Shown here in pieces: positions 39,574 to 59,466 of a stretch of 64,000 nt of DNA. The stretch is from Methylomonas sp. EFPC3 (GTDB lineage Bacteria > Pseudomonadota > Gammaproteobacteria > Methylococcales > Methylomonadaceae). Under the pieces are notes generated by a model. The model saw nothing but the letters and a program-made list of their open reading frames with translations. It was not told the DNA's origin and did no database searches. Numbering within the stretch: the first letter of the stretch is position 1; each line of letters opens with the position of its first letter. The DNA is taken from the NCBI RefSeq assembly GCF_029643245.1, contig NZ_CP116398.1:186001-250000 (forward strand), in the 5' to 3' direction. The translations under genes were made by a program, and so were the position numbers.

Positions 39574-39575
39574 CT

Positions 39576-40259: not shown

Positions 40260-40347
40260 TTTGGCCGTTACTAAGTTACAATAAGCGCCGCGGCGGCGTA
40301 GAGGGATGAAGACCGCCAGGAACACACAACAATAATATCGGTTGCAT

Positions 40348-42311: not shown

Positions 42312-42313
42312 CC

Positions 42314-43198
42314 ATGAGTCAACGTAAAGGCATTATTCTGGCAGGCGGTTCCGGTACCCGCTTGTACCCGGTCACCAAAGCGGTTTCCAAGCAATTGCTG
42401 CCGATTTACGACAAGCCGATGATTTATTATCCGCTCAGCACCTTGATGCTGGCCGGCATTCGCGACATTCTGATCATTTCCACACCGCAGGATACGCCCT
42501 TGTTTCAACAGTTGCTCGGCGACGGCAGCGATTGGGGCTTGAATTTGCAGTACGCGGTACAACCCAGCCCCGACGGCTTGGCGCAGGCCTTCATCATCGG
42601 TCGCGATTTTGTCGGAGCCGATCCCAGCGCCTTGGTGTTGGGCGACAATATTTTCTACGGCCACGATTTGTATCAGCAATTGCGAACAGCAAACGACCGC
42701 AGCTCGGGCGCGACGGTTTTCGCCTACCACGTACAGGACCCGGAGCGTTACGGCGTGGTCAGCTTCGACGCGGAGGGCAGGGCCTTGTCGCTGGAGGAAA
42801 AGCCGGCCCAGCCGAAGAGCCATTACGCCGTGACCGGCTTATATTTTTACGATAATCAAGTGGTCGATATCGCCGCCAATTTGCAACCTTCGCCGCGCGG
42901 CGAGTTGGAAATTACCGACGTCAACCGGATCTATCTTGAGCGTCAACAACTTAGCGTTGAGATCATGGGCCGTGGCTATGCTTGGCTGGATACCGGTACC
43001 CACGCCAGTCTGATCGAAGCCAGCAACTTCATCGAGACCATCGAGTCTCGCCAGGGTCTGAAAATTTCCTGCCCGGAGGAAGTTGCCTGGCGTAGCGGCT
43101 GGATCGGCGACGAGCAGATCGAAAAATTGGCCAAACCGCTGGCAAAGAACGGTTACGGTCAATATTTGTTAACATTGTTGAATAAGCAAGTATTTTGA
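42314..43198 (+). CDS. rfbA: Glucose-1-phosphate thymidylyltransferase
   Basis: A 294-residue nucleotidyltransferase making dTDP-glucose from glucose 1-phosphate and dTTP, the first step of the rhamnose pathway. It begins [30 protein letters not shown], the signature of the family, with [10 protein letters not shown] and [24 protein letters not shown] further in. It starts two bases after rfbD. A longer frame upstream overlaps rfbD and is a shadow. Confidence 0.96.
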
Positions 43199-43366
43199 TT
43201 GGCCGAACTGGTCGCATGCGATTTTTGGTCGCCCACAAAACTGACATCAAATCCGAATAAATTTGGTGTTCATATATCCTGTGGCATAGAGGCTAGCCGT
43301 TTTGCGACTTGCGTTAAATTGCTATCGCTCAGCCGCAGTCACTTTCGTTTAGATTTTAGGTAAGCC

Positions 43367-43915
43367 ATGCAAGCCAGCCGTCTTTCCATTCCCGATGTCG
43401 TATTATTCACCCCTAAAGTGTTCGGCGACGAGCGCGGCTTTTTTTTCGAAAGTTTCAACGAAAAATTGTTCAGGGAATTGACCGGCGTCGACGTCAACTT
43501 CGTGCAGGATAACCACTCGAAATCGCAAAAAGGCGTGTTACGCGGCTTGCATTACCAAATGCCGCCGATGGCCCAAGGCAAGCTGGTCCGGGTTGTACAG
43601 GGCGAAGTATTCGACGTCGCGGTGGACATTCGCAAAAGCTCGCCAACTTTCGGCCAATGGGTCGGCGAAATATTGTCGGCCGATAACAAGCGGCAAATGT
43701 GGATACCGGAAGGCTTCGCCCACGGTTTCGTGACGCTGTCCGATACGGCGGAATTTCTGTACAAAACCACGAATTACTATGCGCCGCACCACGAGCGCTG
43801 TATTGCCTGGAACGACAAGAGTCTGCAAGTCAATTGGCCGTATGCCGGCGAACCGGTTCTCTCCGGAAAAGACCAAGCCGGCGTGTCGTTAGCCGAGGCT
43901 GAACTGTTTGCTTGA
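43367..43915 (+). CDS. rfbC: dTDP-4-dehydrorhamnose 3,5-epimerase
   Basis: A 182-residue cupin epimerase that turns dTDP-4-keto-6-deoxyglucose into the L-rhamno form. The catalytic His is in VLRGLHYQ and the conserved segment IPEGFAHGF follows. It is separated from rfbA by a 168-base gap, which may hold its own promoter, and is followed by the nonulosonate genes. A more divergent paralogue lies at 61293-61865. Confidence 0.95.
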   Translation: MQASRLSIPDVVLFTPKVFGDERGFFFESFNEKLFRELTGVDVNFVQDNHSKSQKGVLRGLHYQMPPMAQGKLVRVVQGEVFDVAVDIRKSSPTFGQWVGEILSADNKRQMWIPEGFAHGFVTLSDTAEFLYKTTNYYAPHHERCIAWNDKSLQVNWPYAGEPVLSGKDQAGVSLAEAELFA

Positions 43916-43958
43916 ACCCGCTCGACGGCCGGCGCTATAAAATTCTTTCTTGATTAAT

Positions 43959-44957
43959 ATGCTTCACGACAAAACCATACTGATTACCGGTGGTACCGGT
44001 TCCTTCGGCCACACCTTCGTGCCGTTGACTTTGGCCAAATACAATCCGCGCCGCCTGGTGATTTTCTCCCGCGATGAAATGAAACAGTGGGAAATGGCGA
44101 AGCTGTACGGCGACGATCCGCGCGTCCGCTTTTTCATCGGCGACGTGCGCGATAAAGACCGTCTGGCCCGCGCGTTGAACGGTATCGAATACGTCGTACA
44201 CGCCGCGGCGACCAAAATCGTGCCGACTGCGGAATACAACCCATTCGAATGCGTCAAGACCAATATCATCGGCGCGATGAATCTGATCGACGCCTGTATC
44301 GATCAGGGCGTGAAGCGAGTGGTCGCTTTGTCTACCGATAAAGCCAGCAGCCCGGCTAATCTGTACGGAGCGACCAAATTGGCTTCCGACAAATTGTTCG
44401 TCGCCGGCAATTCGTACTCCGGCAAAAACGAAACCCGGTTTGCCGTGGTGCGTTACGGCAACGTGATGGGCTCGCGCGGTTCGGTGATTCCGTTTTTCCA
44501 ATCCATCGCCCATAAAGGCGTGTTACCGATCACCGATGCCCGGATGACGCGCTTCATGATCACGTTGGAACAAGGTGTCGATCTGGTCTGGCGCGCCTTC
44601 GACGACATGGTCGGCGGCGAAATTTACGTCAAGAAAATCCCGTCGATGAATATCGTCGATATCGCCCGTGCGGTGGCTCCGGATGCGCAGCACGAAATCG
44701 TCGGCATTCGCCCCGGCGAAAAATTGCACGAGCAAATGATAGGGCTGGAAGACTCGCCTTATACCTACGAGTACGACGACTACTACAAAATTCTGCCGGC
44801 GATTCACAACTGGAGTTCCGATCCCGAGCGCATCAACCAGGGGGTGCGGGTTGCGCCGGATTTTGTCTATTGTTCGGATAACAACACGGAATGGATGAGC
44901 GTGGCCGAGTTGCAGGCCTGGCTGGAACAGAACCGCGACAAAGTCGGCAAAATATGA
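43959..44957 (+). CDS. pseB: UDP-GlcNAc 4,6-dehydratase (inverting), PseB
   Basis: A 332-residue soluble SDR enzyme that starts pseudaminic acid synthesis by removing water from UDP-GlcNAc with inversion at C5. GGTGSFG (11-17) is the cofactor loop; ALSTDKASSPANLYGATKL holds the catalytic Asp-Lys and Tyr-Lys. Its length of about 333 and lack of membrane helices separate it from FlaA1-type membrane dehydratases. The ATG at 43959 is preferred over an in-frame TTG at 43950. The stop overlaps pseC (ATGA). Confidence 0.94.
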   Translation: MLHDKTILITGGTGSFGHTFVPLTLAKYNPRRLVIFSRDEMKQWEMAKLYGDDPRVRFFIGDVRDKDRLARALNGIEYVVHAAATKIVPTAEYNPFECVKTNIIGAMNLIDACIDQGVKRVVALSTDKASSPANLYGATKLASDKLFVAGNSYSGKNETRFAVVRYGNVMGSRGSVIPFFQSIAHKGVLPITDARMTRFMITLEQGVDLVWRAFDDMVGGEIYVKKIPSMNIVDIARAVAPDAQHEIVGIRPGEKLHEQMIGLEDSPYTYEYDDYYKILPAIHNWSSDPERINQGVRVAPDFVYCSDNNTEWMSVAELQAWLEQNRDKVGKI

Positions 44958-46120
44958 CCGCATTCATTCCTTACGGCCGCCAGGATATCAGCGAAGCCGA
45001 CATCCAGGCGGTCATCGATGTCTTAAAGTCCGATTTTCTGACGCAAGGGCCGGCAGTTCCGGCTTTCGAAACCGCGGTTTCGGAATATTGTGGCGCGCGC
45101 CATGCCATTGCCGTGAATAGTGCGACGTCGGCGCTGCACATCGCCTGCCTGGCGTTGGGCGTCGGGCCCGGCGACGTGGTCTGGACCAGCCCGATTACTT
45201 TCGTCGCCAGCGCCAATTGCGCCTTGTACTGCGGTGCCAAGGTCGATTTCGTCGATATCGATCCGCGTACATACAACCTCAGCGTCGCGGCATTGGAACA
45301 GAAACTGCAGGGGGCCGAACGGGACGGGAAGCTACCCAAAGTGGTGATCCCGGTGCATCTGTGCGGGCAATCCTGCGAGATGGCGGCGATCCATGCTTTG
45401 AGCGAAAAATACGGCTTCAAAATCATCGAAGATGCCTCGCACGCGATCGGCGGAAAATACCGGAACCAGCCGATCGGCAATTGCCGCTATGCCGATATCA
45501 CCGTATTCAGTTTCCATCCGGTCAAAATCATCACCACCGCCGAGGGCGGTATGGCGCTGACCAACGATGCCGAGTTGGCCGATAAGCTGGCCCTGCTGCG
45601 CAGCCACGGCATTACCCGCGATCCGGCGCAAATGACGCACCAGGCCGACGGCCCTTGGTATTACCAACAGATTGCGCTCGGTTACAACTACCGCATGACG
45701 GATATCCAGGCCGCTCTGGGTTTGAGCCAGCTATCGCGGTTGGACGAATTCGTGGCAAACCGGCAGTGCTTGGCAGCGCGTTACGACAGTTTGTTGTCGG
45801 CGTTGCCGGTTGAGATTCCTTGGCAGCACCCGGACAATTATTCCGCGTTGCATTTGTACCCGATCAGAATTGCGGAAGTTGTCTCTGCCTACAGCAGACT
45901 GAGTGTGTTCGAAGGCCTGCGCGCAGCCGGTATCGGGGTCAACGTGCATTACATTCCGGTGCACTTGCAGCCGTATTACCGACGGATGGGTTTCCAACCC
46001 GGAGACTTTCCGGAAGCTGAACGTTATTACCGTGCCGCGATCAGTCTGCCGCTCTATGCGACCTTGTCCGAAGCTAACCAAGACCGCGTCATCGAAGCGT
46101 TGCGCGGACAATTGCAATGA
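44954..46120 (+). CDS. pseC: PseC aminotransferase of pseudaminic acid synthesis
   Basis: A 388-residue PLP enzyme of the DegT/DnrJ/EryC1/StrS family. Lys191 (FHPVKIITTAEGG) forms the Schiff base and EDASHAIGGKY lies before it. Next to PseB it should transfer an amino group to C4, giving UDP-4-amino-4,6-dideoxy-L-altrosamine derivative. Start overlaps pseB and stop overlaps the aldo/keto reductase gene (both ATGA). Confidence 0.94.
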   Translation: MTAFIPYGRQDISEADIQAVIDVLKSDFLTQGPAVPAFETAVSEYCGARHAIAVNSATSALHIACLALGVGPGDVVWTSPITFVASANCALYCGAKVDFVDIDPRTYNLSVAALEQKLQGAERDGKLPKVVIPVHLCGQSCEMAAIHALSEKYGFKIIEDASHAIGGKYRNQPIGNCRYADITVFSFHPVKIITTAEGGMALTNDAELADKLALLRSHGITRDPAQMTHQADGPWYYQQIALGYNYRMTDIQAALGLSQLSRLDEFVANRQCLAARYDSLLSALPVEIPWQHPDNYSALHLYPIRIAEVVSAYSRLSVFEGLRAAGIGVNVHYIPVHLQPYYRRMGFQPGDFPEAERYYRAAISLPLYATLSEANQDRVIEALRGQLQ

Positions 46121-47010
46121 AGATCGGTTTGGGTACCGTACAATTCGGCGTCGATTACGGCGTTTCGAATAAAGACGGCAAAACGCCAGCTGCCGAAGTC
46201 GCCGCTATTCTGGCGGCGGCGGATGAGCTGAAGGTTCGGGTGCTAGATACTGCGAGCCTTTACGGCGATAGCGAACAGGTCTTGGGCAATTGTTTGCCGG
46301 CGGCGGCCGGGTTCGATATCGTGACCAAAACCCCGCAATTTGCCAAACCGGTTTTGGATGCAGATGATGCCGAACGATTGCAACAAGTCTTCCACGAGTC
46401 GTTAACAAAGCTGAACTGCGATTCGGTATACGGCTTATTGATTCATCGGGCGGACGATCTGTTCGTGTCCGGCGGCGAACGCTTGATGGCGGCGTTAACC
46501 GGCTTGAAGCAGCAAGGCTTGGTCGCCAAGATTGGGGTTTCGGTGTACGACTCGGCGCAGATAGACCAAATTCTGCAGCGGTTTGATATCGATTTGGTGC
46601 AACTGCCGATCAGTGTTTTGGACCAGCGCTTGCTGGTTAGCGGCCATTTGCAAAAACTAAAATCGGCCGGAGTCGAGGTGCATGCCCGCTCGGTATTTTT
46701 GCAGGGCCTGTTGCTGATGGATGTGTCGGAAATTCCGGCGTATTTCGCTCCGGTGCGGCATGTTCTCGAATCCTATCACTCATTTGTTCGCGCCCGCGGA
46801 TTGACGCCACTACAGGCCGCAGTGGGGTTCGTGTCCGGCTTGACCGAAATCGACCAAATCATTTGCGGCGTGAACAATGCGCAGCAACTACGCGATATCT
46901 GCGACGCCGCCAACGTCGAGCTCGATTGCGGCGAGTTTGCCGGGTTCGCCATCGGCGCAGAAGCGATAGTCAATCCGGCTTTGTGGCGGCTGGAACCAGG
47001 AAAATCATGA
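46117..47010 (+). CDS. Aldo/keto reductase in the nonulosonate operon
   Basis: A 297-residue aldo/keto reductase with an (alpha/beta)8 barrel: GLGTVQFGVDYGVSN at the start, DTASLYGDSE (the catalytic Asp and Tyr), LIHRADD (the catalytic His region) and GVNNAQQL near the cofactor end. The catalytic Lys appears in VTKTPQF. Its substrate is unknown; being coupled to pseC and the cytidylyltransferase by four-base overlaps, it is likely to act on the nonulosonate or a side-chain precursor. It is not part of the standard six-step pathway. Confidence 0.88.
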   Translation: MKIGLGTVQFGVDYGVSNKDGKTPAAEVAAILAAADELKVRVLDTASLYGDSEQVLGNCLPAAAGFDIVTKTPQFAKPVLDADDAERLQQVFHESLTKLNCDSVYGLLIHRADDLFVSGGERLMAALTGLKQQGLVAKIGVSVYDSAQIDQILQRFDIDLVQLPISVLDQRLLVSGHLQKLKSAGVEVHARSVFLQGLLLMDVSEIPAYFAPVRHVLESYHSFVRARGLTPLQAAVGFVSGLTEIDQIICGVNNAQQLRDICDAANVELDCGEFAGFAIGAEAIVNPALWRLEPGKS

Positions 47011-47783
47011 TATTAGCGATATTACAGGCTCGGCTGTCGTCGTCCCGCTTGCCCGGTAAGGTGTTGATGCCGTTGTTGGGAGAGCCGATGTTGCTCAGGC
47101 AAATCGAACGGCTGCAAAAAGTCCGTCATATCGACCGGCTACTGGTCGCTACCAGCAGCGAGACGGCGGACGATGCGATAGCAAGCCTGTGCGAACAACA
47201 TGCAGTCGACTGCTTTCGCGGCAATCTGCACGACGTACTGGACCGGTTTTATCAAGCGGCAGCGAGTTACCACCCGGATCATGTTGTGAGGCTGACCGCG
47301 GATTGCCCGTTGGCCGATCCCGGTTTGATCGACCAAGTCATCGAATTTTATCTGGCCGGCGGTTACGACTATGCCAGTAACGCCATACAGCCGACCTTCC
47401 CGGACGGCTTGGATGTCGAAATCTGCCGCTTTGCCTGCCTGGAGCAGGCTTGGCGCGAGGCCGTGCTGCCGTCGCAACGCGAACACGTCACGCCGTTCAT
47501 TCACCAGCAGCCGGAACGCTTCAATCTTGGCCATTTTTTCAATCGCGAAGACTTGTCGCATCTGCGCTGGACTGTCGACGAGCCCCGAGATTTCGAATTG
47601 GTGTCGCAGATCTATGCCGCTTTGTACCCGGCCAATCCGGATTTCTCGACGCCGGACATCTTGCGTTTATTGGCCGAGCGCCCGGAGCTGGCCAACTGGA
47701 ATACGCAGCATCAACGCAACGAGGGTTATCTTAAATCCCTTGCCGCCGAAGCGCCGCAACCGTCAAACCCCGCGAGTGAATAA
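47007..47783 (+). CDS. SpsF-type cytidylyltransferase (PseF role)
   Basis: A 258-residue nucleotidyltransferase of the SpsF/COG1861 group. It begins MILAILQARLSSSRLPGKVLMPLLGEPML, has LTADCPLADP (metal-binding Asp) and SQREHVTPF. In spore-coat and flagellin glycan loci this family takes the place of PseF and charges the nine-carbon sugar with CMP. It differs from the classical PseF/NeuA start (IPARGGSKRIPRKN). Four-base overlap with the aldo/keto reductase gene. Confidence 0.85.
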   Translation: MILAILQARLSSSRLPGKVLMPLLGEPMLLRQIERLQKVRHIDRLLVATSSETADDAIASLCEQHAVDCFRGNLHDVLDRFYQAAASYHPDHVVRLTADCPLADPGLIDQVIEFYLAGGYDYASNAIQPTFPDGLDVEICRFACLEQAWREAVLPSQREHVTPFIHQQPERFNLGHFFNREDLSHLRWTVDEPRDFELVSQIYAALYPANPDFSTPDILRLLAERPELANWNTQHQRNEGYLKSLAAEAPQPSNPASE

Positions 47784-47788
47784 CCCTT

Positions 47789-49078
47789 ATGTCAGAACGT
47801 TACCGCAACTCCGAAACACTACTGGAACGCGCGCTGAAAACCATTCCGCTCGGTTCCCAAACTTTCAGCAAGAGTAAAACCCAATACCCGTACGGGGTGT
47901 CGCCGTATTTCATCCAGCGCGGGCGCGGCAGCCACGTTTGGGATGTCGACGGCAACGAGTACGTCGATTTCATTAACAGCCTGGCCGCGGTTACGCTGGG
48001 TTACAACGATCCTGACGTCACCGAAGCCGTCAAGGCGCAGTTGGAAGACGGTGTGATATTCAGCTTGTCCCATCCGATCGAAATGCAGGTCGCCGAAAAA
48101 ATCTGCGAATTGGTGCCGTGTGCGGAACGAGTCAGATTCGGCAAAAACGGTTCCGATGCTACGGCCGGTGCCATTCGTTTGGCGCGCGCGCATACCGGCC
48201 GCGACCATGTCGCGGTTTGCGGCTACCATGGCTGGCAGGATTGGTATATCGGTTCGACCTTGCGCAACCGGGGCGTGCCACAAGCCACCCGCGATTTGAC
48301 GCATACCTTCACGTATAACGACATCACCTCGCTGGACAGTGTGTTCAAGCAGTGGCCGGACCGGATCGCTGCGGTGATTCTGGAACCGATGAATGTGGTC
48401 GAGCCGCAGGACGGGTTTCTGGAGAATGTCAAAGAATTAACCCACAAACACGGCGCGGTGTTGGTTTTCGACGAAACCATTACCGGCTTTCGTTACGCCA
48501 ATGGCGGTGCGCAGGAATATTTCGGCGTGACGCCGGATTTGGCAACCTTCGGCAAAGGTTTGGCCAACGGTTATCCGGTATCTGCCGTCGCCGGGCGCGC
48601 GGACTTGATGCAATTGATGGAAGAAGTGTTCTTCTCGTTTACCTTCGGTGGCGAAACCTTGTCCTTGGCGGCCGCATTAGCGACGATGCAGAAATTGCAG
48701 CGCGAACCGGTCGTAGCGACGATGCGGCTGCAAGGCGAAAAAATCATCCAGCGCCTGCATGCAGCGATAGCCGCACATGGCGCCGAGCATTTTCTTAGCG
48801 TCTCCGGCCATCCGGCCTGGAGCTTTTTGTTGATCAAGGATGCCGAGCCGTACACGTCCTGGCAATTGAAAACCCTGTTCATGCAAGAGATGCTGGAACG
48901 CGGCATTCTGGCCTTCGGCACTCACAATATGAGCTATAGCCATCACGACAGCGATCTGGATCAATTGTTTGCCGCTTACGATGCGGTGCTTCCGCTGCTG
49001 GTTGCGGTGGTCAAGGAGCGCTCCTTGGAGAAAATGCTGCGTTGTCAGGCGCTGGAACCGCTGTTCAAGGTCAGATGA
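47789..49078 (+). CDS. Class III aminotransferase (glutamate-1-semialdehyde-mutase-like)
   Basis: A 429-residue PLP enzyme. VFDETITGFRY and Lys256 in TFGKGLANGYPV are the class III signatures; the whole resembles glutamate-1-semialdehyde aminomutase. It is unlikely to be the haem-pathway enzyme because it sits inside the nonulosonate operon and differs at the start (SKTQYPYGVSPYFIQRG). It could add a further amino group to the sugar or make an amino-acyl donor. pseG overlaps its stop (ATGA). Confidence 0.85.
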   Translation: MSERYRNSETLLERALKTIPLGSQTFSKSKTQYPYGVSPYFIQRGRGSHVWDVDGNEYVDFINSLAAVTLGYNDPDVTEAVKAQLEDGVIFSLSHPIEMQVAEKICELVPCAERVRFGKNGSDATAGAIRLARAHTGRDHVAVCGYHGWQDWYIGSTLRNRGVPQATRDLTHTFTYNDITSLDSVFKQWPDRIAAVILEPMNVVEPQDGFLENVKELTHKHGAVLVFDETITGFRYANGGAQEYFGVTPDLATFGKGLANGYPVSAVAGRADLMQLMEEVFFSFTFGGETLSLAAALATMQKLQREPVVATMRLQGEKIIQRLHAAIAAHGAEHFLSVSGHPAWSFLLIKDAEPYTSWQLKTLFMQEMLERGILAFGTHNMSYSHHDSDLDQLFAAYDAVLPLLVAVVKERSLEKMLRCQALEPLFKVR

Positions 49079-50178
49079 GCCTAAAAGTCGCGATTCGCGC
49101 CGACGCCTCGGTGCAGATGGGCAGCGGCCATGTGATGCGTTGCCTGACTCTGGCCGATGCATTGCGCGAGCGCGGTGCCGAGGTGGCATTCATCAGCCGC
49201 GAACATCCGGGCAATCTGTTTTCGCTGATCGAGGCTTCCGGCCATCTGTTATTGCGGTTGCCGGAATCGACGTCCGCTCCCGATACCCGGCTTGCCCATG
49301 CCGCGTGGTTGGGAACAACGCAAACCGAGGATGCCCAACAAACCGCTGCGGCTTTACGGCAGTTTGGCGATCCCGATTGGCTGATCGTCGACCATTACGC
49401 GATCGACGCGGAATGGGAGGCAATATTGCGGCCGATGGTCGGGCGCATCATGGTGATCGACGATTTGGCGGACCGGCGGCACGATTGTGAACTGTTGCTT
49501 GATCAAAACTTTTATATCAGTCCTGAGCAGCGTTATCGCAGTTGGGTTCCTCAATCTTGCGATTTGTTGTTTGGTCCGGAATATGCTTTGTTGCGTCCAG
49601 AATTTCTGGTGGCAGCCAATTTCTCACGAGCGCGCGATGGCCGAATTCGGCGCATATTGGTTTTCTTCGGGGGCAGCGATCCGACCGGTGAAACCGTAAA
49701 AGCGCTACAAGCCTTTGATTTGCTCGGTTGGACTGAGACGGAGATCGATGTCGTCGTGGGTAAAACCAACCCGCGCAACCCGCTGATTGAAGCACTTTGC
49801 GATAAATACGCGAATATTCATTTTCATTGCCAAACCTCGGATATGGCCCATTTGTGCGCGACAGCTGATATTGCAATTGGTGCAGGGGGGAGTGCAAATT
49901 GGGAGCGTTTTAAATTGGGTTTGCCGACAATGATTGTATTGACTGCCGACAATCAGTGCGAAACTATGCAGGCGCTGGCGGCGGCCGGTTACATTCGCTT
50001 GCTTGGGAAAGCGGATGAAATTGGACCGGAAAGAATTGCGGAAGCACTGACACAGATTTCGCAATGCCCGACACAATTGCTGGAAATGGGTGAAAAGTGT
50101 TTTGGTTTAATGAATGGTTACAAAGGGGCGCAATATGTTGCGCGAATATTGGATCGAAAGCAGACTGAGATAGAGTGA
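49075..50178 (+). CDS. pseG: PseG nucleotide-sugar hydrolase
   Basis: A 367-residue GT-B-like hydrolase that removes UDP from the 2,4-diacetamido sugar before condensation. GSGHVMRC (16-23) contains the catalytic His, and IAIGAGGSANWERFKLGLPTM is the UDP-binding loop. Starts in overlap with the aminotransferase stop. From about 49.5 kb the sequence becomes visibly less GC-rich, marking the start of the less GC-rich block. Confidence 0.92.
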   Translation: MSLKVAIRADASVQMGSGHVMRCLTLADALRERGAEVAFISREHPGNLFSLIEASGHLLLRLPESTSAPDTRLAHAAWLGTTQTEDAQQTAAALRQFGDPDWLIVDHYAIDAEWEAILRPMVGRIMVIDDLADRRHDCELLLDQNFYISPEQRYRSWVPQSCDLLFGPEYALLRPEFLVAANFSRARDGRIRRILVFFGGSDPTGETVKALQAFDLLGWTETEIDVVVGKTNPRNPLIEALCDKYANIHFHCQTSDMAHLCATADIAIGAGGSANWERFKLGLPTMIVLTADNQCETMQALAAAGYIRLLGKADEIGPERIAEALTQISQCPTQLLEMGEKCFGLMNGYKGAQYVARILDRKQTEIE

Positions 50179-51074
50179 AGATTGTGGCAGCGCAGGTTAA
50201 GCAAAACAAGCACGGATATTACGAATTAGTAGACAAGCCGACTCAGGCAGACCTTCAAGCTTACTATGCGGAAAAGTATTACCAAGCAGCCGCAGGTAGT
50301 TACGAGGTGACTTATTCTGAAAGTGAAATTACCTACTTTAATAATAAAATCGCGCAGAAATTTCTCGCTGCTCAAAGTCATCTGGTATTTCCGGTCAATA
50401 GAGCCGCAAAGTTTCTGGACGTCGGTGCCGGGGAAGGTTGGGCACTGAAGTTTTTTGCGGATTCTGGTTGGGATTGTATCGGCTTGGATTACAGCGATTT
50501 TGGTTGTGCGGCTCACAATCCGGGGATTTTAGAGTATCTGGTAGCGGGAGATATTTACCAAAGTTTACGCGGTCTAATTTCAGATCAACGACGTTTCGAT
50601 CTAATTCTGCTCGATAACGTATTGGAACATGTTTTGGAACCTTCGGCGTTACTGGTAGAACTGCGTGACTTACTTGAGCCAAATGGCGTTTTAATGATTG
50701 AGGTGCCAAACGATTTCTCGATTCTGCAAGCACATCTCATGGAGTTTGGTCACATCGATCAGCCATTCTGGGTGGTCTCGCCAGACCATATTTCATATTT
50801 TGGCCCCGATAGTTTGGCCTCGCTAGTAAAGTCGGCTGGGTTGGATGTCAAAATGTTGATGACCGATTTCCCAATCGATTTGGCCTTGGCGAATCCGTTA
50901 ACCAATTACGTCAGAGACCGTTCAGTCGGAAAGGCATGTCATAAGGCTCGCGTCGAGATCGAAAATTTGTTGCACGCAATTTCCCCGGAAAAGACAAATA
51001 CGCTTTATCAGGCTTTGGCCGATTTGGGACTGGGGCGCGAGGTGATTGCAATTTGCTCAAAAGCTGTTCAGTAA
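50175..51074 (+). CDS. Class I SAM methyltransferase in the nonulosonate operon
   Basis: A 299-residue methyltransferase. FLDVGAGEGWALKFF is motif I, IGLDYSDFGC motif II, LILLDNVLEHV motif IV and LLEPNGVLMIEVPNDF motif V. The N-terminal YYELVDKPTQADLQAYYAEKYYQ fits sugar or small-molecule methyltransferases of glycan loci. The GTG start overlaps the pseG stop (GTGA). It may O- or N-methylate the nonulosonate; inference only. Less GC-rich than the flanks. Confidence 0.85.
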   Translation: MKIVAAQVKQNKHGYYELVDKPTQADLQAYYAEKYYQAAAGSYEVTYSESEITYFNNKIAQKFLAAQSHLVFPVNRAAKFLDVGAGEGWALKFFADSGWDCIGLDYSDFGCAAHNPGILEYLVAGDIYQSLRGLISDQRRFDLILLDNVLEHVLEPSALLVELRDLLEPNGVLMIEVPNDFSILQAHLMEFGHIDQPFWVVSPDHISYFGPDSLASLVKSAGLDVKMLMTDFPIDLALANPLTNYVRDRSVGKACHKARVEIENLLHAISPEKTNTLYQALADLGLGREVIAICSKAVQ

Positions 51075-51102
51075 AAAGGGCGTTATTAGCCGCTGGGTAC
51101 GA

Positions 51103-51813
51103 ATGAAGTCAGTTGTCGTAATTTCCGGAGCCACTAGCGGCTTGGGAAACGAGTTATTGAGAACGTTGTTGTCGAATCATATCCCGACCATAGCAATTGG
51201 TCGGCGTATTGACAGGTTGGCCCAACAATTCGGTGCCGATATTCAAAACCTGGTAGCACTTGAAGCAGACTTAGCCAAATCGACAGATCTGCAATGGCTG
51301 CGGAATTTGGAGATGTGCCTTGAAACAAAGGAATTTCGGCAAATCGTCTTGTTGAGCAATGCGGGAGATATCAATCCAATCGGTCTGGTCGGCGAAAATG
51401 CGGCAGACGAAATGGAAAAGTCCTTGAATGTCAATTTGCTGGCACCGATGCTTTTAGCCAGCACCTGTGTCCGGCTTGCAAAAGCGTTATGCGCGGAATT
51501 GCTAGTACTTAATATTTCGTCGGGTGCGGCACATAAGCCGATACCTGGCTGGTCAGCATATTGCTCCGCCAAAGCAGGAGCTCGGATGTTTTTTGACACT
51601 CTTGCGTCGGAATACCCGGAGACCGTGGTCGTTCGACATATCGACCCTGGCGTTTTGGATACCGCAATGCAACGACAAATTCGTGAATCTCCTCCAGCGC
51701 GGTTTCCAGCCGTTCAAGATTTTATTGCCTTAAAATCGGATGGACGGTTAAAGCCGCCGTCCCTAGTCGCAGCTGAAATCGTAGCGTCGATTTTGTCCGG
51801 GATGCCGAAGTGA
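51103..51813 (+). CDS. Short-chain dehydrogenase in the nonulosonate operon
   Basis: A 236-residue classical SDR. The cofactor loop is ISGATSGLGNEL (7-18), the central motif LLSNAGD, and the active site Ser ... Tyr-x3-Lys appears as NISSGAAHKPIPGWSAYCSAKAG. It would oxidise or reduce a hydroxyl/keto group with NAD(P). Closest by pattern to the sepiapterin-reductase-like SDR group. Coupled to the next gene by a four-base overlap. Confidence 0.85.
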   Translation: MKSVVVISGATSGLGNELLRTLLSNHIPTIAIGRRIDRLAQQFGADIQNLVALEADLAKSTDLQWLRNLEMCLETKEFRQIVLLSNAGDINPIGLVGENAADEMEKSLNVNLLAPMLLASTCVRLAKALCAELLVLNISSGAAHKPIPGWSAYCSAKAGARMFFDTLASEYPETVVVRHIDPGVLDTAMQRQIRESPPARFPAVQDFIALKSDGRLKPPSLVAAEIVASILSGMPK

Positions 51814-52508
51814 AAATCGGCCTTTTAGGCGATATACACGGCAACTCGTTGGCGCTTGAGGCTGTGTTGGCAAGTGCCAAAGCGAAGAATGTCGAGATTT
51901 TGTGTCTAACCGGCGATTTCGTTGGCTACTATTACAGCCCCGATCGCGTACTCGATATGTTAACGGAGTGGAGTACGTTTGCGGTGGCGGGCAATCACGA
52001 ACACATGCTGTTTGAGTCGCTCGAAAGTGCAGAGCGGCGCGATGAGTACCTTTCGAAGTATGGTAGCGGATTAATTAGCGCTGCATGCCGACTGTCGCCA
52101 AGTCAACTGGAATGGCTCCGGAAACTGCCCGCCAAACTGGAGCTTGATATTTCCGGTCAGCGTATTTTGTTGGCTCATGGTGCGCCCTGGGATACCGATT
52201 GCTACCTTTATCCGGATGCCCCGGAGCCTCACTGGACCAGAGCTGCCGAAGGAAACTTCGATCTGGTTGTGTTAGGGCATACGCACTACAGATTTCAGCG
52301 GAAAATCGGCCGTAGTTTGATTGTCAACCCGGGGTCGGTAGGTCAGCCTAGAGATCGGATACCCGGCGCCGCTTGGGCTGTTTTCGATACCGACACGATG
52401 GTCTGTGAGCATTACTCCGAATCTTATGATGTTTCAACAGTGATACAACAGGCTCGAGTCAACGATCCCAATAAAAAATATCTGCAAGAGGTTTTGGTTC
52501 GGAGATGA
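51810..52508 (+). CDS. Metallophosphoesterase in the nonulosonate operon
   Basis: A 232-residue calcineurin-like phosphoesterase of the YfcE type. The two-metal site is built from GDIHGN (7-12), TGDFVG, AGNHEHM, LLAHGAP and LGHTHYR; all ligand positions look present. It should hydrolyse a phosphate ester, perhaps the nonulosonate 9-phosphate or an acyl/amino sugar phosphate, since classical pathways via phosphorylated sugar need a phosphatase. GTG start overlaps the SDR stop; ATG of the next gene overlaps its stop. Confidence 0.87.
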   Translation: MKIGLLGDIHGNSLALEAVLASAKAKNVEILCLTGDFVGYYYSPDRVLDMLTEWSTFAVAGNHEHMLFESLESAERRDEYLSKYGSGLISAACRLSPSQLEWLRKLPAKLELDISGQRILLAHGAPWDTDCYLYPDAPEPHWTRAAEGNFDLVVLGHTHYRFQRKIGRSLIVNPGSVGQPRDRIPGAAWAVFDTDTMVCEHYSESYDVSTVIQQARVNDPNKKYLQEVLVRR

Positions 52509-53443
52509 CAAACATACTGATAACTGGAATTGGTGGTGATATCGCCCAGGCTGCCGCGTCGATTGTCAAGCAAACGCATCCTGATTGGCGATTGGTTGGC
52601 GTAGATATGGATAGCCGGCACGGCGGTCGTCTATTCGTCGATCATTTTGAGATTATGCCGCCAGCCAATTCCGATAGTTTCATTCGCCGGCTAGAGGAAC
52701 TGGTAGAACGATACAATATCGATTTCTGTTTGCCTATGTCCGAAGCGGAACTGAGCGTTTTGGCAAGAAATGGCATCGAGTCCATCGGACGCGCCCAATT
52801 GCTTTGGGCGGGTAAAAAGGCGATCGAGGTTTGTTGTGATAAATTGGAAACAGCGCAATTTGTGAGATCATTGGGGATTGCAGTTCCCTGGACTCTGCCG
52901 GCTTCTGCGGATGTCAATCCTTTGTCATTCCCCTGCCTATTCAAATTACGCAATAGCGCCGGGTCGAAAGCGGTGTTTATCTGCAACACCATTGAAGAGG
53001 TCCATTTTTTCCGAGCACGGTATCCGTCTGCTGTGGTTCAGGAATACCTACCTGATGCGGATCAGGAAATCACCTGCGCGGTATACCGCTCCAAGTCGGG
53101 CGTTACGCAAGTGCTGCAGATGAGGCGCCGTTTGGTTGGTGGTTTTACCGGATGGGCCGAAATAGTCGAACATTCGGCGGTTACTGAGCAATGCGTAACG
53201 ATTGCGGAGGCCTTGGATCTTTTGGGACCGATAAACATACAGCTGAGGATGACCCCGGATGGGCCGAGAATTTTTGAAATCAATCCACGGCTATCGTCAA
53301 CTATCTTGATGCGGCATTTAGTGGGGTTTACTGATTTGTTATGGATGGTAAACGAAGCGCTAGGCCTGCCAATCATTCAACCAAAGGAGTCGGTTGGCAC
53401 CGTTTTGGTCAGAACGCAAGGCGCAGCGGTCGTTCCGTCTTAA
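52505..53443 (+). CDS. ATP-grasp ligase in the nonulosonate operon
   Basis: A 312-residue ATP-grasp enzyme. The N-terminal Rossmann-like part (ILITGIGGDIAQAAASIVKQ) is followed by CLFKLRNSAGSKAVF (ATP-binding Lys and flexible loop), VVQEYLPDADQEITC and FEINPRLSST (metal-binding Glu/Asn). Such carboxylate-amine ligases couple acids to amines with ATP; here it may attach an amino acid or another acid to the sugar's amino group. It ends the less GC-rich four-gene block before pseI. Confidence 0.88.
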   Translation: MTNILITGIGGDIAQAAASIVKQTHPDWRLVGVDMDSRHGGRLFVDHFEIMPPANSDSFIRRLEELVERYNIDFCLPMSEAELSVLARNGIESIGRAQLLWAGKKAIEVCCDKLETAQFVRSLGIAVPWTLPASADVNPLSFPCLFKLRNSAGSKAVFICNTIEEVHFFRARYPSAVVQEYLPDADQEITCAVYRSKSGVTQVLQMRRRLVGGFTGWAEIVEHSAVTEQCVTIAEALDLLGPINIQLRMTPDGPRIFEINPRLSSTILMRHLVGFTDLLWMVNEALGLPIIQPKESVGTVLVRTQGAAVVPS

Positions 53444-53462
53444 TTTAGGTAGGGATTACACC

Positions 53463-54512
53463 ATGAGTATTAAACTAGCCGACATCGAGATCGGACAAAG
53501 TCACAAGCCGTTCATTATTGCCGAAATGTCCGGCAACCATAACCAGTCGCTCGAGCGCGCATTGCAGATCGTCGAAGCGGCGGCGCGTTCCGGTGCGCAC
53601 GCGCTGAAGATCCAAACCTACACGGCCAATACCATGACGTTGGATTTGGATCAGGGCGAGTTTTTTATTTCGGACGACAAGTCGTTATGGCAGGGTACGT
53701 CACTCTATAAACTTTATCAGCAAGCTCACACGCCTTGGGAATGGCATAAGCCCATCTTCGACCGTTGCCGTGAATTGGGTATGATCGGTTTTTCGACACC
53801 ATTCGATTCGACCTCGGTCGATTTTTTGGAGACGTTGGATGTACCTTGCTACAAAATCGCCTCGTTCGAAAATATCGATCTGCCGTTGATACGCAAAGTG
53901 GCCGCCACTGGCAAGCCGATGATCGTTTCCACCGGCATGGCCAGCGTAGCCGAACTGGACGATACGGTGCGCGCCGCGCGCGCAGCCGGCTGCAACGACA
54001 TCGTGTTGTTGAAATGCACCAGTTCCTATCCCGCCACGCCGAAGAACACCAACATCCGCACCATTCCGCACCTGCGTGAATTGTTCGGCTGCGAAGTGGG
54101 TTTGTCCGACCATACCATGGGTACCGGCGTCGCCGTGGCCAGCGTGGCGTTGGGAGCCAGTGTCATCGAAAAGCACTTTACCCTGTGCCGCGCCGACGGC
54201 GGCGTCGATAGTGCATTTTCGCTGGAGCCCGCAGAAATGGCGGCATTGGTGGTCGAAACCGAGCGCGCCTGGCAAGCCTTGGGCGAAATCAGCTACGGCG
54301 TAACCGACGCCGAAAAAAAATCGCTGCAATTTCGGCGTTCTATTTACATCGCCCGCGACGTCGTGGCCGGCGAAGTTTTGACCAGCGAGAATTTGCGCTG
54401 CGTCAGGCCCGGTCTGGGATTGCCGCCCAAGTACTACGAAACCTTGCTGGGGCGCAAGGTCAACCGCGATGTGAAAATGGGTACGCCGATGTCCTGGGAT
54501 TTGCTCGGCTGA
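53463..54512 (+). CDS. pseI: Pseudaminic acid synthase PseI (NeuB family)
   Basis: A 349-residue NeuB-type synthase that condenses phosphoenolpyruvate with the six-carbon sugar. The TIM barrel spans about 1-275, with IIAEMSGNHNQ, KIQTYTANTM, GFSTPFDSTSVDFL and GLSDHTMG; the SAF/antifreeze-like domain forms the C-terminus (about 285-349, AGEVLTSENLRCVRPGLGL). The PseI-like opening and PseB/C/G neighbours favour pseudaminic acid over legionaminic or neuraminic acid. The ATG at 53463 follows GTAGGGA. Confidence 0.94.
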   Translation: MSIKLADIEIGQSHKPFIIAEMSGNHNQSLERALQIVEAAARSGAHALKIQTYTANTMTLDLDQGEFFISDDKSLWQGTSLYKLYQQAHTPWEWHKPIFDRCRELGMIGFSTPFDSTSVDFLETLDVPCYKIASFENIDLPLIRKVAATGKPMIVSTGMASVAELDDTVRAARAAGCNDIVLLKCTSSYPATPKNTNIRTIPHLRELFGCEVGLSDHTMGTGVAVASVALGASVIEKHFTLCRADGGVDSAFSLEPAEMAALVVETERAWQALGEISYGVTDAEKKSLQFRRSIYIARDVVAGEVLTSENLRCVRPGLGLPPKYYETLLGRKVNRDVKMGTPMSWDLLG

Positions 54513-54515
54513 GTA

Positions 54516-55586
54516 ATGGCGGAAATCGAACAACCTTGGTTGGATCGTTTACCTTTCGATCTCGATGAAGTTTTGGCGGCGGCGAATTTGCCGGCCCGGC
54601 CGTATTCAGAAAATCCAGGCAATTGGTGTAACGCGGCCGTGCGTGCCGAATATCTGCCGGTGGCCTATAGCAGGGCCATGATCGACTACCAGTTGGCATA
54701 TTGGCGCGGCGGCGGACAACCGCTATTCGACCTATCCCTCGTGCTTTACCAGGACAAGCATCCCTGCGGTATCTGGCCGTTGAGCTTTGTCGTCGCCGAT
54801 GGCGTGCGTCTCGGTAGCAACGGCGATGCGCTGTTGCCGCCGCTGTTCGTTGCCGGGCTGACGCCAAACGTCAGAAAAAAGCTGTTGCAAAGTTGCCTGG
54901 ATTTCGTCGATACGCTGGCGAGGAAATTTGATATCGGCCAATGGCAGTCGCTGGCTGCATTCGAAAATCAGTCCAGTGTCAGCGAATGGCAACACTTGGC
55001 TTTGTGCCGCGGTGCCACCGTTGCCTGCAGCTACGAATTGTTTATCGATTTACATCGTTCCGTTGCCGAGATTAAGTCCGGCTTTCGCAAGAGTTACCGG
55101 CCGTTGGTGTCGTTGGGTGCCAAACTGTGGCAGATTGCGGTTCTTGACGGCCGCGACGATCGGGTCTGGGACGAATTCAAAAATCTGCATCGCGAGGTCG
55201 CCGGCAGGGTGACGCGCAGCGACGACAGTTGGCGCTTGCAGCACGCAGCCGTCGCGTCCGGCGACGCGTTTCTGGTGTACCTGCGCGACGGCGCGCAACG
55301 CATGGTCGGCGGCGGTTTTTTTCAGGTGACCCGCGACGAAGCCGTATACGCGGTGGCTGCCTACGATAGGGCGCTATTCGACAAGCCTTTGGGGCATGCC
55401 GTGCAATACCGGGCCATAGAAGAAATGAAAAGCCGCGGCGTCCGTTGGTACAAAATCGGCGCCCGGCCCTATCCCGGCGATCAGCCGCCGCCCAGCGACA
55501 AGGAGCTGCGGATTGCCGAATTCAAACAGGGTTTTGCTTCACATATTTTTCCGTGCTTTCGCTTGACCGCCAGCCTATGCCATTGA
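54516..55586 (+). CDS. FemAB/GNAT-fold acyltransferase candidate
   Basis: A 356-residue protein starting four bases after the pseI stop. The second half (about 180-330) resembles the FemAB/GNAT fold: KSGFRKSYRPLVSLG, FKNLHREVAGRVTRSDDSW, GDAFLVYLRDGAQRMVGGGFFQVTRDEAVYAVAAYDRALFDKP and YRAIEEMKSRGVRWYKIGARP, which is the cofactor/substrate half of such proteins. It could fill the missing PseH N-acetyltransferase step or add another acyl group. It is far longer than PseH (~180 residues). The assignment is by fold pattern and position. Confidence 0.7.
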   Translation: MAEIEQPWLDRLPFDLDEVLAAANLPARPYSENPGNWCNAAVRAEYLPVAYSRAMIDYQLAYWRGGGQPLFDLSLVLYQDKHPCGIWPLSFVVADGVRLGSNGDALLPPLFVAGLTPNVRKKLLQSCLDFVDTLARKFDIGQWQSLAAFENQSSVSEWQHLALCRGATVACSYELFIDLHRSVAEIKSGFRKSYRPLVSLGAKLWQIAVLDGRDDRVWDEFKNLHREVAGRVTRSDDSWRLQHAAVASGDAFLVYLRDGAQRMVGGGFFQVTRDEAVYAVAAYDRALFDKPLGHAVQYRAIEEMKSRGVRWYKIGARPYPGDQPPPSDKELRIAEFKQGFASHIFPCFRLTASLCH

Positions 55587-55718
55587 TTTCTGAGTCCTGG
55601 AACCTGTCCTGCGAACAAACAGCCGTCTATCGTCTTTCCGTATGCACTCGATAACATTCAGCCCATTCCCTGCCAAAAACAGCGGCCGCAGATTTTCGAG
55701 CCGGCAAGGAGCTTGTTG

Positions 55719-56615
55719 ATGGCAAATGTTTCCATTGGCATCGTCTCTTATAACCGGCCGGAGTTGCTGAAACGGGCCATCGAATCGGCGACCTCGCAAA
55801 CCTACCGCGACGTGGAAATTGTCATTAGCGACAATGGCAGCACCGATCCGCTGGTCAGGCAAATTATCGAAGAATTTGCCGCTAACGACCCACGCATCAA
55901 GTGCCTGTTCCATCCGGTCAACCAAGGGGCGTTTTTTAATTTCCGGGCGGCCTTGAATGCCGCCACCGGCCGCTATTTCATCTGGCTGGCCGACGACGAT
56001 TATTGGTGCGCGGAGTATTTGGAACATATAGTGGCCACAGCCGAACAAAGCGGGGCGGCTTTGACCTATGGCCGTTGCGAGATAGTCGATGTCGACTTAG
56101 CTGGCGATGACCGACTGGTGAAGGAAATGAAAACGGCATTGGGCAGACTGGCCGCGATGACCAATTTCGTTCGTCTCGACACCGACGCCGTGTTTTACGG
56201 CCTGTTTCCTACCGCATTGGGCCGGAAATTGGCCGGGTTGTTGCGCTTTTGGCGGATACCGCCGAAGCTGGCCGTGGCTTGGCCGTTTCTTGAATATAAT
56301 TTCGTCAGTTACGCCTTTATTTTCGGCCTGTTGAGCTCGGGCGGATATTGCAACGCCAGTAGCGAAAATACCGTACATTTCGTCGGCGGCCGATCGCCTT
56401 TTCCGCATTCGCCAAGTTTGGGTTGGCGCCATCTGCTGCTGTTTCTAATGTACGTCTCGGTTCACCTGCAAATGGCGAGCCGGTTTGCCTATGCCGCGTA
56501 TGCGGCCGCCAGTTGGCCGGGTGTGATGTTCTCGCCGGTTGCGGTGGGTTATTTGTTTTGCCGCCGGCTCGGCATGATTTTGAGTCAAAGATTAAACACA
56601 CTGAGAAAGGTCTGA
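55719..56615 (+). CDS. Family 2 glycosyltransferase
   Basis: A 298-residue GT-A enzyme. VSIGIVSYNRPELLKRAIESATSQ, VIVISDNGSTDP and the DxD region WLADDDYW are clear; a C-terminal hydrophobic stretch (about 200-290) suggests membrane contact. It would transfer one of the sugars made in the locus. AAGGAGC precedes the ATG; in-frame TTG codons at 55713 and 55716 are less likely starts. The next gene starts one base after its stop. Confidence 0.9.
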   Translation: MANVSIGIVSYNRPELLKRAIESATSQTYRDVEIVISDNGSTDPLVRQIIEEFAANDPRIKCLFHPVNQGAFFNFRAALNAATGRYFIWLADDDYWCAEYLEHIVATAEQSGAALTYGRCEIVDVDLAGDDRLVKEMKTALGRLAAMTNFVRLDTDAVFYGLFPTALGRKLAGLLRFWRIPPKLAVAWPFLEYNFVSYAFIFGLLSSGGYCNASSENTVHFVGGRSPFPHSPSLGWRHLLLFLMYVSVHLQMASRFAYAAYAAASWPGVMFSPVAVGYLFCRRLGMILSQRLNTLRKV

Positions 56616-56616
56616 A

Positions 56617-57489
56617 ATGAGCGTAAAAACCAAATTCAAGGATTGGCTGTATACAAACTATCCGGGGTCGAAGCAAAAAGTGGAAAACTTTTTTGCCGAT
56701 GCACCACTGTTGCGGAGATTGTTGCGCGTCGGCTTTACCCCGACTTTTCAGGGTTGGGGTATGTCGACCTTTACCCATACGCCGTGGGGCAGTGCGACCG
56801 ATCTGGGCGACATAGAACAGGCTTTCAACGAAACCTGCGGCCAGTTAACCGAACTGGTTAAAAACGACGGATTCAAACTGACCCAATTCAAGCCGGCCGA
56901 ACGGTTGAGCATGTTGAATTCGTTGATGTGGCGGCATTACATCGTCTTCTGGAGCGCCACTTTTGCCGCCAAATACGCGCCGCGCGGGACGCATAATTTT
57001 GTCGAATGCGGAGTTTGCGACGGTCTGACTTCATTTTTTGCATTGAGTGCCGCATCCGGCTGCGGTAACGATTGGGGCGCTTATTTGTACGATGCTTGGG
57101 AGGCGATGCGCGGGGATTTGCTGTTGGATAGCGAGAAAGCCAATCAGGGGGAATACGGCTACCTGAATGTCGATGTGACTCGGGCCAATCTGGCCAAGTT
57201 TGGCGATAGGGTTCGCTTCAACAAGGGTTATATCCCCGAATCGTTTGCCCAATCGGAAAATCCCGAGGCGATTGTGTGGATACATATCGATTTGAATTCC
57301 GCGACGCCGACCATTGCCGCGCTCGACTTTTTTTGGCCGCGCATGGTTTCGGGCGGGGTGGTGTTGTTCGACGATTATGCATGGGCCGGTTACGAGGACA
57401 CCCGCAATTTAATCCTGCAATGGTTGAAAGGCAAGGAAGGCACGCTGCTGCCGTTGCCTACCGGGCAAGCGTTGATCTTTAAACGCTGA
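56617..57489 (+). CDS. TylF/MycF-like sugar O-methyltransferase
   Basis: A 290-residue methyltransferase of the TylF family. FVECGVCDGLTSFF is the SAM-binding motif, and IHIDLNSATPTIAALDFFWPRMVSGGVVLFDDYAWAGYEDTR carries the metal-binding Asp residues of this Mg-dependent group. Family members methylate sugar hydroxyls. It sits between the glycosyltransferase and the ABC exporter, so it may cap or decorate a glycan before export. Confidence 0.86.
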   Translation: MSVKTKFKDWLYTNYPGSKQKVENFFADAPLLRRLLRVGFTPTFQGWGMSTFTHTPWGSATDLGDIEQAFNETCGQLTELVKNDGFKLTQFKPAERLSMLNSLMWRHYIVFWSATFAAKYAPRGTHNFVECGVCDGLTSFFALSAASGCGNDWGAYLYDAWEAMRGDLLLDSEKANQGEYGYLNVDVTRANLAKFGDRVRFNKGYIPESFAQSENPEAIVWIHIDLNSATPTIAALDFFWPRMVSGGVVLFDDYAWAGYEDTRNLILQWLKGKEGTLLPLPTGQALIFKR

Positions 57490-57531
57490 TCGCGGAAGCG
57501 AGCCGATGGGCTGTCGTTTTAAGGAGCAAAA

Positions 57532-59313: not shown

Positions 59314-59466
59314 CCGACCTGGGAATCCACAAATTTCGCAGGTGAAAGCCGGCGGCCTATCGTGTATCATCCACCGTTTTTTCTTTAGCTCGCTCGCGTT
59401 GAAAAATAAAATGGTGCGTCCGTTACAGCCCCGCCGATTGGCTGCCGACCTTTTTAAAGTTGATTC

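Follow-up and report, generated by a model that had tools for sequence, protein, structure and literature searches.

A nonulosonate locus of Methylomonas sp. EFPC3 with a recurring AKR-SpsF-AT3 gene unit and an exchanged segment between PseG and PseI

Pseudaminic acid is canonically made by PseB, PseC, PseH, PseG, PseI and PseF, and the locus described here raises the question of how such a sugar could be acylated and activated where neither PseH nor PseF is recognised. The locus is a run of 12 open frames in the same direction, from PseB to a FemAB-type transferase, all of them verified, at positions 43959-55586 of a 64,000-nucleotide stretch (the window) that corresponds to positions 186001-250000 of the single 4.44 Mb contig of the Methylomonas sp. 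EFPC3 genome. As in the canonical pathway, PseB, PseC, PseG and PseI lie in a single gene run, and all four, which a preliminary description of this DNA had called clear, score above the curated NCBIfam cut-offs. Unlike the canonical pathway, the locus has an ATP-grasp cassette at the place where a genome of the same species has a PseH-like domain, an SpsF-type cytidylyltransferase in place of PseF, and an added aldo/keto reductase (AKR) and class III aminotransferase (AT3). The sequences establish this gene set, the recurrence of AKR, SpsF and AT3 as a unit, and the exchange of a segment within one species.

The locus would make a pseudaminic-acid-type sugar activated with cytidine monophosphate (CMP) by a modular route, in which PseB, PseC, PseG and PseI are assigned by family membership and the other roles are proposed here. 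On the reading that we slightly favour, the ATP-grasp cassette acylates N-7 in place of PseH, the AKR-SpsF-AT3 unit gives an 8-amino sugar, and FemAB decorates separately. A wider proposal, whose chances we regard as evenly balanced, is that the unit makes CMP-8-amino-pseudaminic acid in several phyla, as the transaminase counterpart of Acinetobacter EpaA/EpaB, and that N-7 acylation is an exchangeable slot, open to a cassette of ATP-grasp ligase and phosphoesterase that attaches a methylated acid and that, along with the PseG C-terminus, was swapped within the species. If the unit does make 8-amino sugars, genome sequences would allow them to be predicted across several phyla, and the route could be rebuilt in vitro; if the cassette acts as proposed, ATP-grasp ligation would join acetyl and formyl transfer as a route to N-7 acylation. 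Gene content and comparison support the earlier expectation of a sugar acid in which the N-acyl group, the amino substitution or both are unusual.

No protein among the 12 genes passes the PseH model, as the preliminary description had noted. It had named a PseH gene elsewhere in the genome, along with detection of standard pseudaminic acid only, as a reason to doubt an unusual product, and no such gene lies above the cut-off: in a profile search of the 4.44 Mb genome with TIGR03585, the only two matches reached 29.9 and 22.9 bits against a cut-off of 93.1. These two candidates, which we read as a lone generic GNAT and a RimI-like protein, were rejected. Likewise, no PseF above the cut-off of 205.7 bits was found in the locus (21.5 bits, for the SpsF-type enzyme) or in the genome (123.5 bits at best, in a separate locus). 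The CTP_transf_3 domain of the SpsF-type enzyme agrees with its earlier placement at the CMP-activation step.

Exchange of the segment between PseG and PseI

A 19.9 kb stretch fetched from a same-species genome (locus L170, genome G844) matches the window at 96.7% over positions 39070-49508 and at 98.5% over 53502-61840. Between these flanks it has 1129 bases where the window has 3993. The shorter segment encodes a PseG C-terminus fused to a PseH-like GNAT domain, and the longer one a different PseG C-terminus followed by an S-adenosylmethionine (SAM)-dependent methyltransferase (MT), a short-chain dehydrogenase/reductase (SDR), a metallophosphoesterase (MPE) and an ATP-grasp ligase. Between the two loci, identity is 96-100% for PseB, PseC, AKR, SpsF, AT3, PseI, FemAB and the three proteins that come after it; PseG is 60% identical, its first ~145 residues being shared with relatives and its C-terminal ~222 (from 49509) lying in the swapped segment. 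The alignment breaks at the same window position, 49508, against L170 and against two loci of the same genus, L014 and L015, in which similarity is regained at 53507. PseG is fused to a GNAT domain in L014 and to a formyltransferase-like domain in L015 (Pfam 24.2 bits, below the cut-off of 26.1), and in both loci MT and PIG-L genes come after the fused PseG.

The genes of the swapped segment have a guanine-plus-cytosine (GC) content of 45.9-51.5%, compared with 55-60% from PseB to the PseG N-terminus and for PseI to FemAB, and 54.4 and 52.6% for the next two genes. The pattern fits an import of the segment by recombination in the conserved flanks. PseH was probably replaced by an MT-SDR-MPE-ATP-grasp cassette that brought its own PseG C-terminal part, and the swap offers a ready-made experiment on the genes that determine the acyl group at N-7.

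The PIG-L deacetylase genes of the two sibling loci (L014:11490-12197 and L015:11447-12154) adjoin the methyltransferases of the corresponding segment, and may provide deacetylation before re-acylation.

A comparable exchange in Acinetobacter capsules involves psaD, which we take to be the PseG counterpart, and psaE; as far as the available parts of the reports go, two neighbouring genes are there too exchanged jointly and track the N-7 acyl group. The incoming module of the window differs: in place of an acyltransferase it brings an ATP-grasp ligase along with a phosphoesterase, a methyltransferase and an SDR. In those parts, psaD/E (called nucleotidase and acetyltransferase) are replaced by psaG/H, and N-7 carries acetyl or 3-hydroxybutanoyl accordingly (PMC6586298, PMC9676051).

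The position of the swapped segment, termed slot 1, was compared in 59 loci that possess AT3, PseG and, downstream, PseI. It holds an ATP-grasp ligase in 7 loci, a GNAT or formyltransferase in 47, neither in 5 and both in none (0/59). The accompanying hypergeometric value, 2.3e-6, is a guide only, as related loci are treated as independent. MPE lies directly 5' of the ATP-grasp gene in 6 of the 7 ATP-grasp loci. Relatives of MT stand directly 5' of the MPE-ATP-grasp pair in L025, L048, L061 and L107, and L107, which belongs to a different family within the class, has the order SDR, MT, MPE, ATP-grasp.

Several observations weigh against a simple replacement of PseH by this cassette. The GNAT domains of the sibling loci score 44.5 and 42.8 bits (the latter in L170), below the PseH cut-off of 93.1. 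The ATP-grasp ligase of L052 has no MPE. In three of the seven slot-1 ATP-grasp loci (L025, L048, L061), PseI is directly followed by a GNAT, a possible PseH; against the PseH model, that of L025 scores 28.1 bits and that of L048 has no match. Moreover, L059 and L067, with a GNAT in slot 1, have an ATP-grasp gene directly after PseI, such that both enzymes can share a locus. The split between ATP-grasp and GNAT or formyltransferase is one by slot, not by locus.

Genes of the WbqC family recur near PseI in L016, L017, L031, L040 and L051. In four of the five loci they lie between PseG and PseI, and they may represent a further constituent of slot 1.

The predicted model of the ATP-grasp ligase (pLDDT 89.6) is closest by Foldseek to 2pn1 (E 1.6e-20), PurK, PurT and PylC; apart from 2pn1, these are enzymes that activate a small acid, which is then transferred to an amine. 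Lys147, Glu258, Asn260 and Arg262 are kept in 8/8 of the aligned sequences, and Glu180 and Glu188 in 7/8. In MPE, eight Asp/Asn/His residues, presumably the metal site, are kept in 6/6. A phosphatase of a different type, belonging to the PHP family, is encoded by a gene that overlaps a window-related ATP-grasp gene, beside sulfate-activation genes, in L106 (a Sinorhizobium meliloti plasmid) and L110. The Sinorhizobium ATP-grasp protein is 28% identical to that of the window. Since two unrelated phosphatases, MPE and PHP, adjoin related ligases, we suggest that the acid used in the ATP-grasp step, or its product, carries phosphate. An MPE-ATP-grasp pair also occurs at L109:7705-9389, in a locus that has no PseI or PseG match and that includes WbqC, a DegT-type aminotransferase and genes reading as CDP-sugar type.

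In the proposed route, PseB and PseC would produce UDP-4-amino-4,6-dideoxy-AltNAc. The ATP-grasp ligase, in place of PseH and to judge from its predicted fold, would convert a carboxylic acid to an acyl phosphate and join it to the 4-amino group, which later becomes N-7; MPE would remove the phosphate borne by the acid or the product, and MT and SDR would tailor the acyl group. PseG would then free the acylated hexose, and PseI would condense it with phosphoenolpyruvate. Our guess is that the acid is of the glycerate type, from a phosphorylated precursor.

A biological parallel is the sfmABCDE flagellin-modification locus of Shewanella oneidensis which, in the part of the report available, comprises a NeuB-type synthase together with genes for an SDR, a methyltransferase and an ATP-grasp protein, and accounts for a 274 Da sugar with one N-acetyl group and a 236 Da substituent able to carry methyl groups (PMC3765264). 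Like the window, it has no clear PseH. Unlike the window, it has a thiamine-pyrophosphate (TPP) enzyme, a 412-residue SfmE and, according to the part of its paper available, no clear PseG or PseI orthologue (PMC3765264). No TPP family occurs among the Pfam matches of the 12 window genes.

The AKR-SpsF-AT3 unit

An alignment scan of named genomes with AT3, from which the best 80 of at least 409 relatives were kept, recovered Janthinobacterium, Thiobacillus, Chromobacterium, Bacillus, Paenibacillus, Brocadia, Nitrospirae, Bacteroidetes and others, many as metagenome-assembled genomes. Together with the window, L014, L015 and L017 these make 84 loci, chosen by AT3 (L016, without AT3, is outside this set). 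Profile searches found AKR in 71 of the 84, SpsF in 74 and a PseF label in 10. The labelled order AKR-SpsF-AT3 occurs in 48, and the longer order PseC-AKR-SpsF-AT3-PseG in 32; the preliminary description had proposed such a search for gene order. The three domains are fused in a single 996-residue frame in L068, and SpsF is fused to AT3 in L093, L053, L107, L155 and L157. Within the genus, the AT3 gene is present in 4 of 37 genomes, one of them of the same species. We conclude from these comparisons that AKR, SpsF and AT3 are a recurring unit across several phyla. Pfam verified the families earlier named as added to the pathway (AKR, class III aminotransferase, methyltransferase, SDR, metallophosphoesterase and ATP-grasp), but AKR, SpsF and AT3 belong to this widespread unit and are not local additions, such that the label of extra enzymes holds in part.

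Two further samples, which may overlap with the 80, were chosen by other genes. A class-wide search of 274 genomes for PseI, independent of AT3, gave 29 places above the cut-off, of which 28 were examined, the window included (G211, cut by a contig end, was left out). PseF is present in 15 of the 28, none of which has AKR or AT3. AKR is present in seven: in six it is accompanied by AT3, and in the seventh, L148, it is fused to SpsF and an SDR follows. The remaining six, several of them short stretches, have neither PseF nor AKR; in L163 and L166, which are among them, SpsF adjoins PseI or is fused to it. A search of 398 genomes for AKR gave 19 loci, 13 with AT3 within the fetched stretch.

Asp44, Tyr49, Lys71 and His110 of AKR are kept in 71/71 aligned relatives, and Lys256 of AT3 in 83/83; we take these to be the catalytic residues. 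A function for the unit is suggested by Acinetobacter prophages. In the part of the report available, EpaA is a CTP_transf_3 domain fused to Aldo_ket_red and EpaB an SDR, and the two jointly convert Pse5Ac7Ac to its 8-epimer, as seen by NMR after both genes were introduced into a strain lacking them (PMC12053666). In a Vibrio cluster, according to the part of its report available, a dehydrogenase gene comes after one for an SpsF-AKR fusion protein (PMC7371886), and L148 has the same build as both. The window carries the same domain families, PF02348 and PF00248, in adjoining genes, but these are separate and not fused; an EpaB-type SDR is not adjacent to the unit, AT3 being in that place, and the SDR of the window lies inside the swapped cassette. 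By analogy, amination is predicted for the window unit where EpaA/EpaB bring about inversion.

AKR would thus oxidise the C-8 hydroxyl, AT3 would transaminate the 8-ketone, and SpsF would add CMP to give an activated 5,7,8-triamino-3,5,7,8,9-pentadeoxynonulosonic acid. Because AT3 occupies the place of the SDR beside SpsF and AKR, the product is probably 8-amino-pseudaminic acid, its third nitrogen added by the three-enzyme unit. A sugar of this kind is known chemically from Flexibacter maritimus, now Tenacibaculum; T. maritimum is not among the best 80 of the at least 409 AT3 relatives. According to the part of a review available, the O-polysaccharide of that bacterium contains a sugar of the 8-amino-3,5,7,8,9-pentadeoxynonulosonic acid type, which resembles the backbone predicted here, with its C-8 configuration left open and with acetyl and 3-hydroxybutyryl on N-5 and N-7, on whose placement the review is inconsistent (PMC3210612). 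Among the papers listed in the literature searches, we found neither a biosynthetic route to an 8-amino nonulosonic acid nor any role assigned to a class III aminotransferase of a pseudaminic acid locus.

Counting against C-8 amination by this unit are several features of the samples and of the enzymes. Six of the 19 AKR loci lack AT3 in the fetched stretch (L188, at a contig end, L189, L192, L194, L195 and L196), and L189 has SpsF, AKR, PseC and PseI with neither AT3 nor an L148-like SDR. No AKR match was found in 13 of the 84 AT3 loci, some of which are truncated at a contig end, and a PseF label is present in 10. Scores of the AT3 domains are 291-302 bits in L107, L155 and L157, compared with 753-802 in four other loci, which makes half of the six AT3 loci from the PseI sample distant ones. 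The closest PDB relatives of AT3 are glutamate-1-semialdehyde (GSA) aminomutases, which act on other substrates, and AKRs often reduce rather than oxidise. L148 is the only EpaAB-like PseI locus found, and its AKR is 27% identical to that of the window. Finally, a Legionella O-antigen locus holds similar genes, according to the part of the report available (PMC3694923), and the sugar of a non-1 serogroup Legionella is reported, in the title of a reference, without an 8-amino group, although it may come from a serogroup other than that of the gene locus.

AT3 was also considered as a duplicate of HemL and rejected on its score below the HemL cut-off (Table 1) and its recurring linkage to AKR and SpsF. 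A search of the phage collection for an SpsF-AKR fusion, with L148 as query, gave no match.

FemAB and the alternative readings

The protein after PseI, earlier described as FemAB/GNAT-like, is confirmed as such by TIGR04421, its sole NCBIfam match, and Acetyltransf_6 (Table 1). Its predicted model (pLDDT 90.9) has a FemX-like fold, as in the FemABX aminoacyl-tRNA-dependent transferases: the closest Foldseek matches are FemX (6snr; E 4.1e-12, TM 0.63, 12% identity) and aminoacyl-tRNA-dependent peptide synthases. Against the sequences of solved structures it matched two designed proteins only, with uninformative E values of 0.093 and 0.77. Among the 59 loci, FemAB lies within 1 kb after PseI (slot 2) in nine, and eight of these nine also have a slot-1 GNAT or formyltransferase. 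FemAB genes farther from PseI (L017, L030, L037, L057, L087) are outside the nine, as is L056, in which FemAB is next to PseI and slot 1 holds a GNAT. A different GNAT occupies slot 2 in L025, L048, L061, L044, L060 and L028. As FemAB coexists with slot-1 acyltransferases and other loci hold other GNAT proteins in its place, the contents of the two slots seem to be independent of one another, and FemAB would be a second, independent decorating transferase. Its acceptor is not always an 8-amino group, since L016 has FemAB with neither AKR nor AT3 in 19.5 kb.

Could FemAB nevertheless be the missing PseH, with the cassette merely decorating a product close to standard Pse5Ac7Ac? The protein does have a fold of the GNAT superfamily, the genome has no other PseH above the cut-off, and the GNAT directly after PseI in L025, L048 and L061 offers a parallel in three other ATP-grasp loci. 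Yet it has no match to TIGR03585, and directly after PseI neither a GNAT nor a FemAB is labelled in three further ATP-grasp loci, L035, L036 and L052. FemAB is 98% identical in L170, whose PseG is already fused to a PseH-like GNAT. The PseH activity earlier envisaged for this protein is hard to reconcile with that genome and with the eight other loci that hold FemAB plus a slot-1 acyltransferase; because of these eight of nine FemAB loci, FemAB is probably not PseH, and we hold this explanation to be very unlikely. It is also improbable, if less so, that the cassette modifies a different sugar within the same polysaccharide, the N-4 of the PseC product being left free or acylated by an unrecognised enzyme elsewhere. 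The MPE-ATP-grasp pair of L109, away from PseI and PseG, and the Sinorhizobium ligase next to a PHP phosphatase would suit that explanation, whereas the exchange of the PseH-like domain along with the PseG C-terminus at the same place, and the absence of any locus with ATP-grasp and GNAT or formyltransferase together in slot 1, argue against it.

A different alternative accepts the replacement of PseH by the cassette and questions the unit: AKR and AT3 might act other than in C-8 amination, at another carbon or in making a precursor for any of the acyl modules. The GSA-aminomutase-like character of AT3 and the lack of a described AT3 function among the papers listed leave some room for this. 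The fusion of AKR, SpsF and AT3 in one frame, taken with the action of EpaA/EpaB at C-8, points instead to the nine-carbon stage and to C-8, and we regard such another role as unlikely, if less so than the other two alternatives. Our preference accordingly remains with N-7 acylation by the cassette, C-8 amination by the unit and separate decoration by FemAB.

Gene inventory, surroundings and host

The features of the locus are listed in Table 1. Seven joints of the 12-gene run are 4-base overlaps (PseB/PseC, PseC/AKR, AKR/SpsF, AT3/PseG, PseG/MT, SDR/MPE and MPE/ATP-grasp), and the remaining four have gaps of 3-28 bases.

Table 1 Features of the nonulosonate locus, with window positions and profile scores
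Feature	Position	Strand	Model evidence
PseB, UDP-GlcNAc 4,6-dehydratase (inverting)	43959..44957	+	TIGR03589 528.5 bits, cut-off 407.75
PseC, 4-aminotransferase	44954..46120	+	TIGR03588 586.3 bits, cut-off 423.5
AKR, aldo/keto reductase of the AKR-SpsF-AT3 unit	46117..47010	+	PF00248
SpsF-type cytidylyltransferase, stand-in for PseF	47007..47783	+	CTP_transf_3 PF02348
AT3, class III GSA-aminomutase-like aminotransferase	47789..49078	+	PF00202; HemL model 268.3 bits, cut-off 527.3
PseG, UDP-sugar hydrolase	49075..50178	+	TIGR03590 294.9 bits, above curated cut-off
MT, SAM methyltransferase	50175..51074	+	Methyltransf_23
SDR oxidoreductase	51103..51813	+	PF00106
MPE, YfcE-type metallophosphoesterase	51810..52508	+	Metallophos_2 PF12850; TIGR00040 61.5 bits, cut-off 56.25
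ATP-grasp ligase (proposed amide former on the 4-amino group)	52505..53443	+	PF15632
PseI, nonulosonate synthase	53463..54512	+	TIGR03586 507.9 bits, cut-off 340.25
FemAB-type transferase, tandem GNAT fold, slot 2	54516..55586	+	TIGR04421 FemAB_IMCC1989 316.9 bits, cut-off 250; Acetyltransf_6 26.0 bits, cut-off 22
Swapped segment: PseG C-terminal part, MT, SDR, MPE, ATP-grasp, first PseI codons	49509..53501	+	

The locus is preceded by genes read as rmlB, rmlD, rmlA and rmlC, on the 5' side of PseB, and is followed, 3' of FemAB, by a family 2 glycosyltransferase, a methyltransferase and an ABC transporter, and then by genes read as CDP-sugar type. Two genes of the PmoA/AmoA family lie above the Pfam cut-off on the host contig, which implies that the host oxidises methane or ammonia; it is probably a methanotroph.

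A second nonulosonate locus of the host genome (L018, G000:C1:2411000-2430500) encodes LegB, LegC, NeuC-like, NeuB and NeuD-like proteins and a CMP synthetase, reads as legionaminic type and adjoins a flagellin gene. A comparison of AT3 with the NeuC-like L018 protein was uninformative. Since this separate legionaminic-type locus stands beside flagellin, the sugar of the window more likely goes to a polysaccharide or other glycoconjugate than to flagellin.

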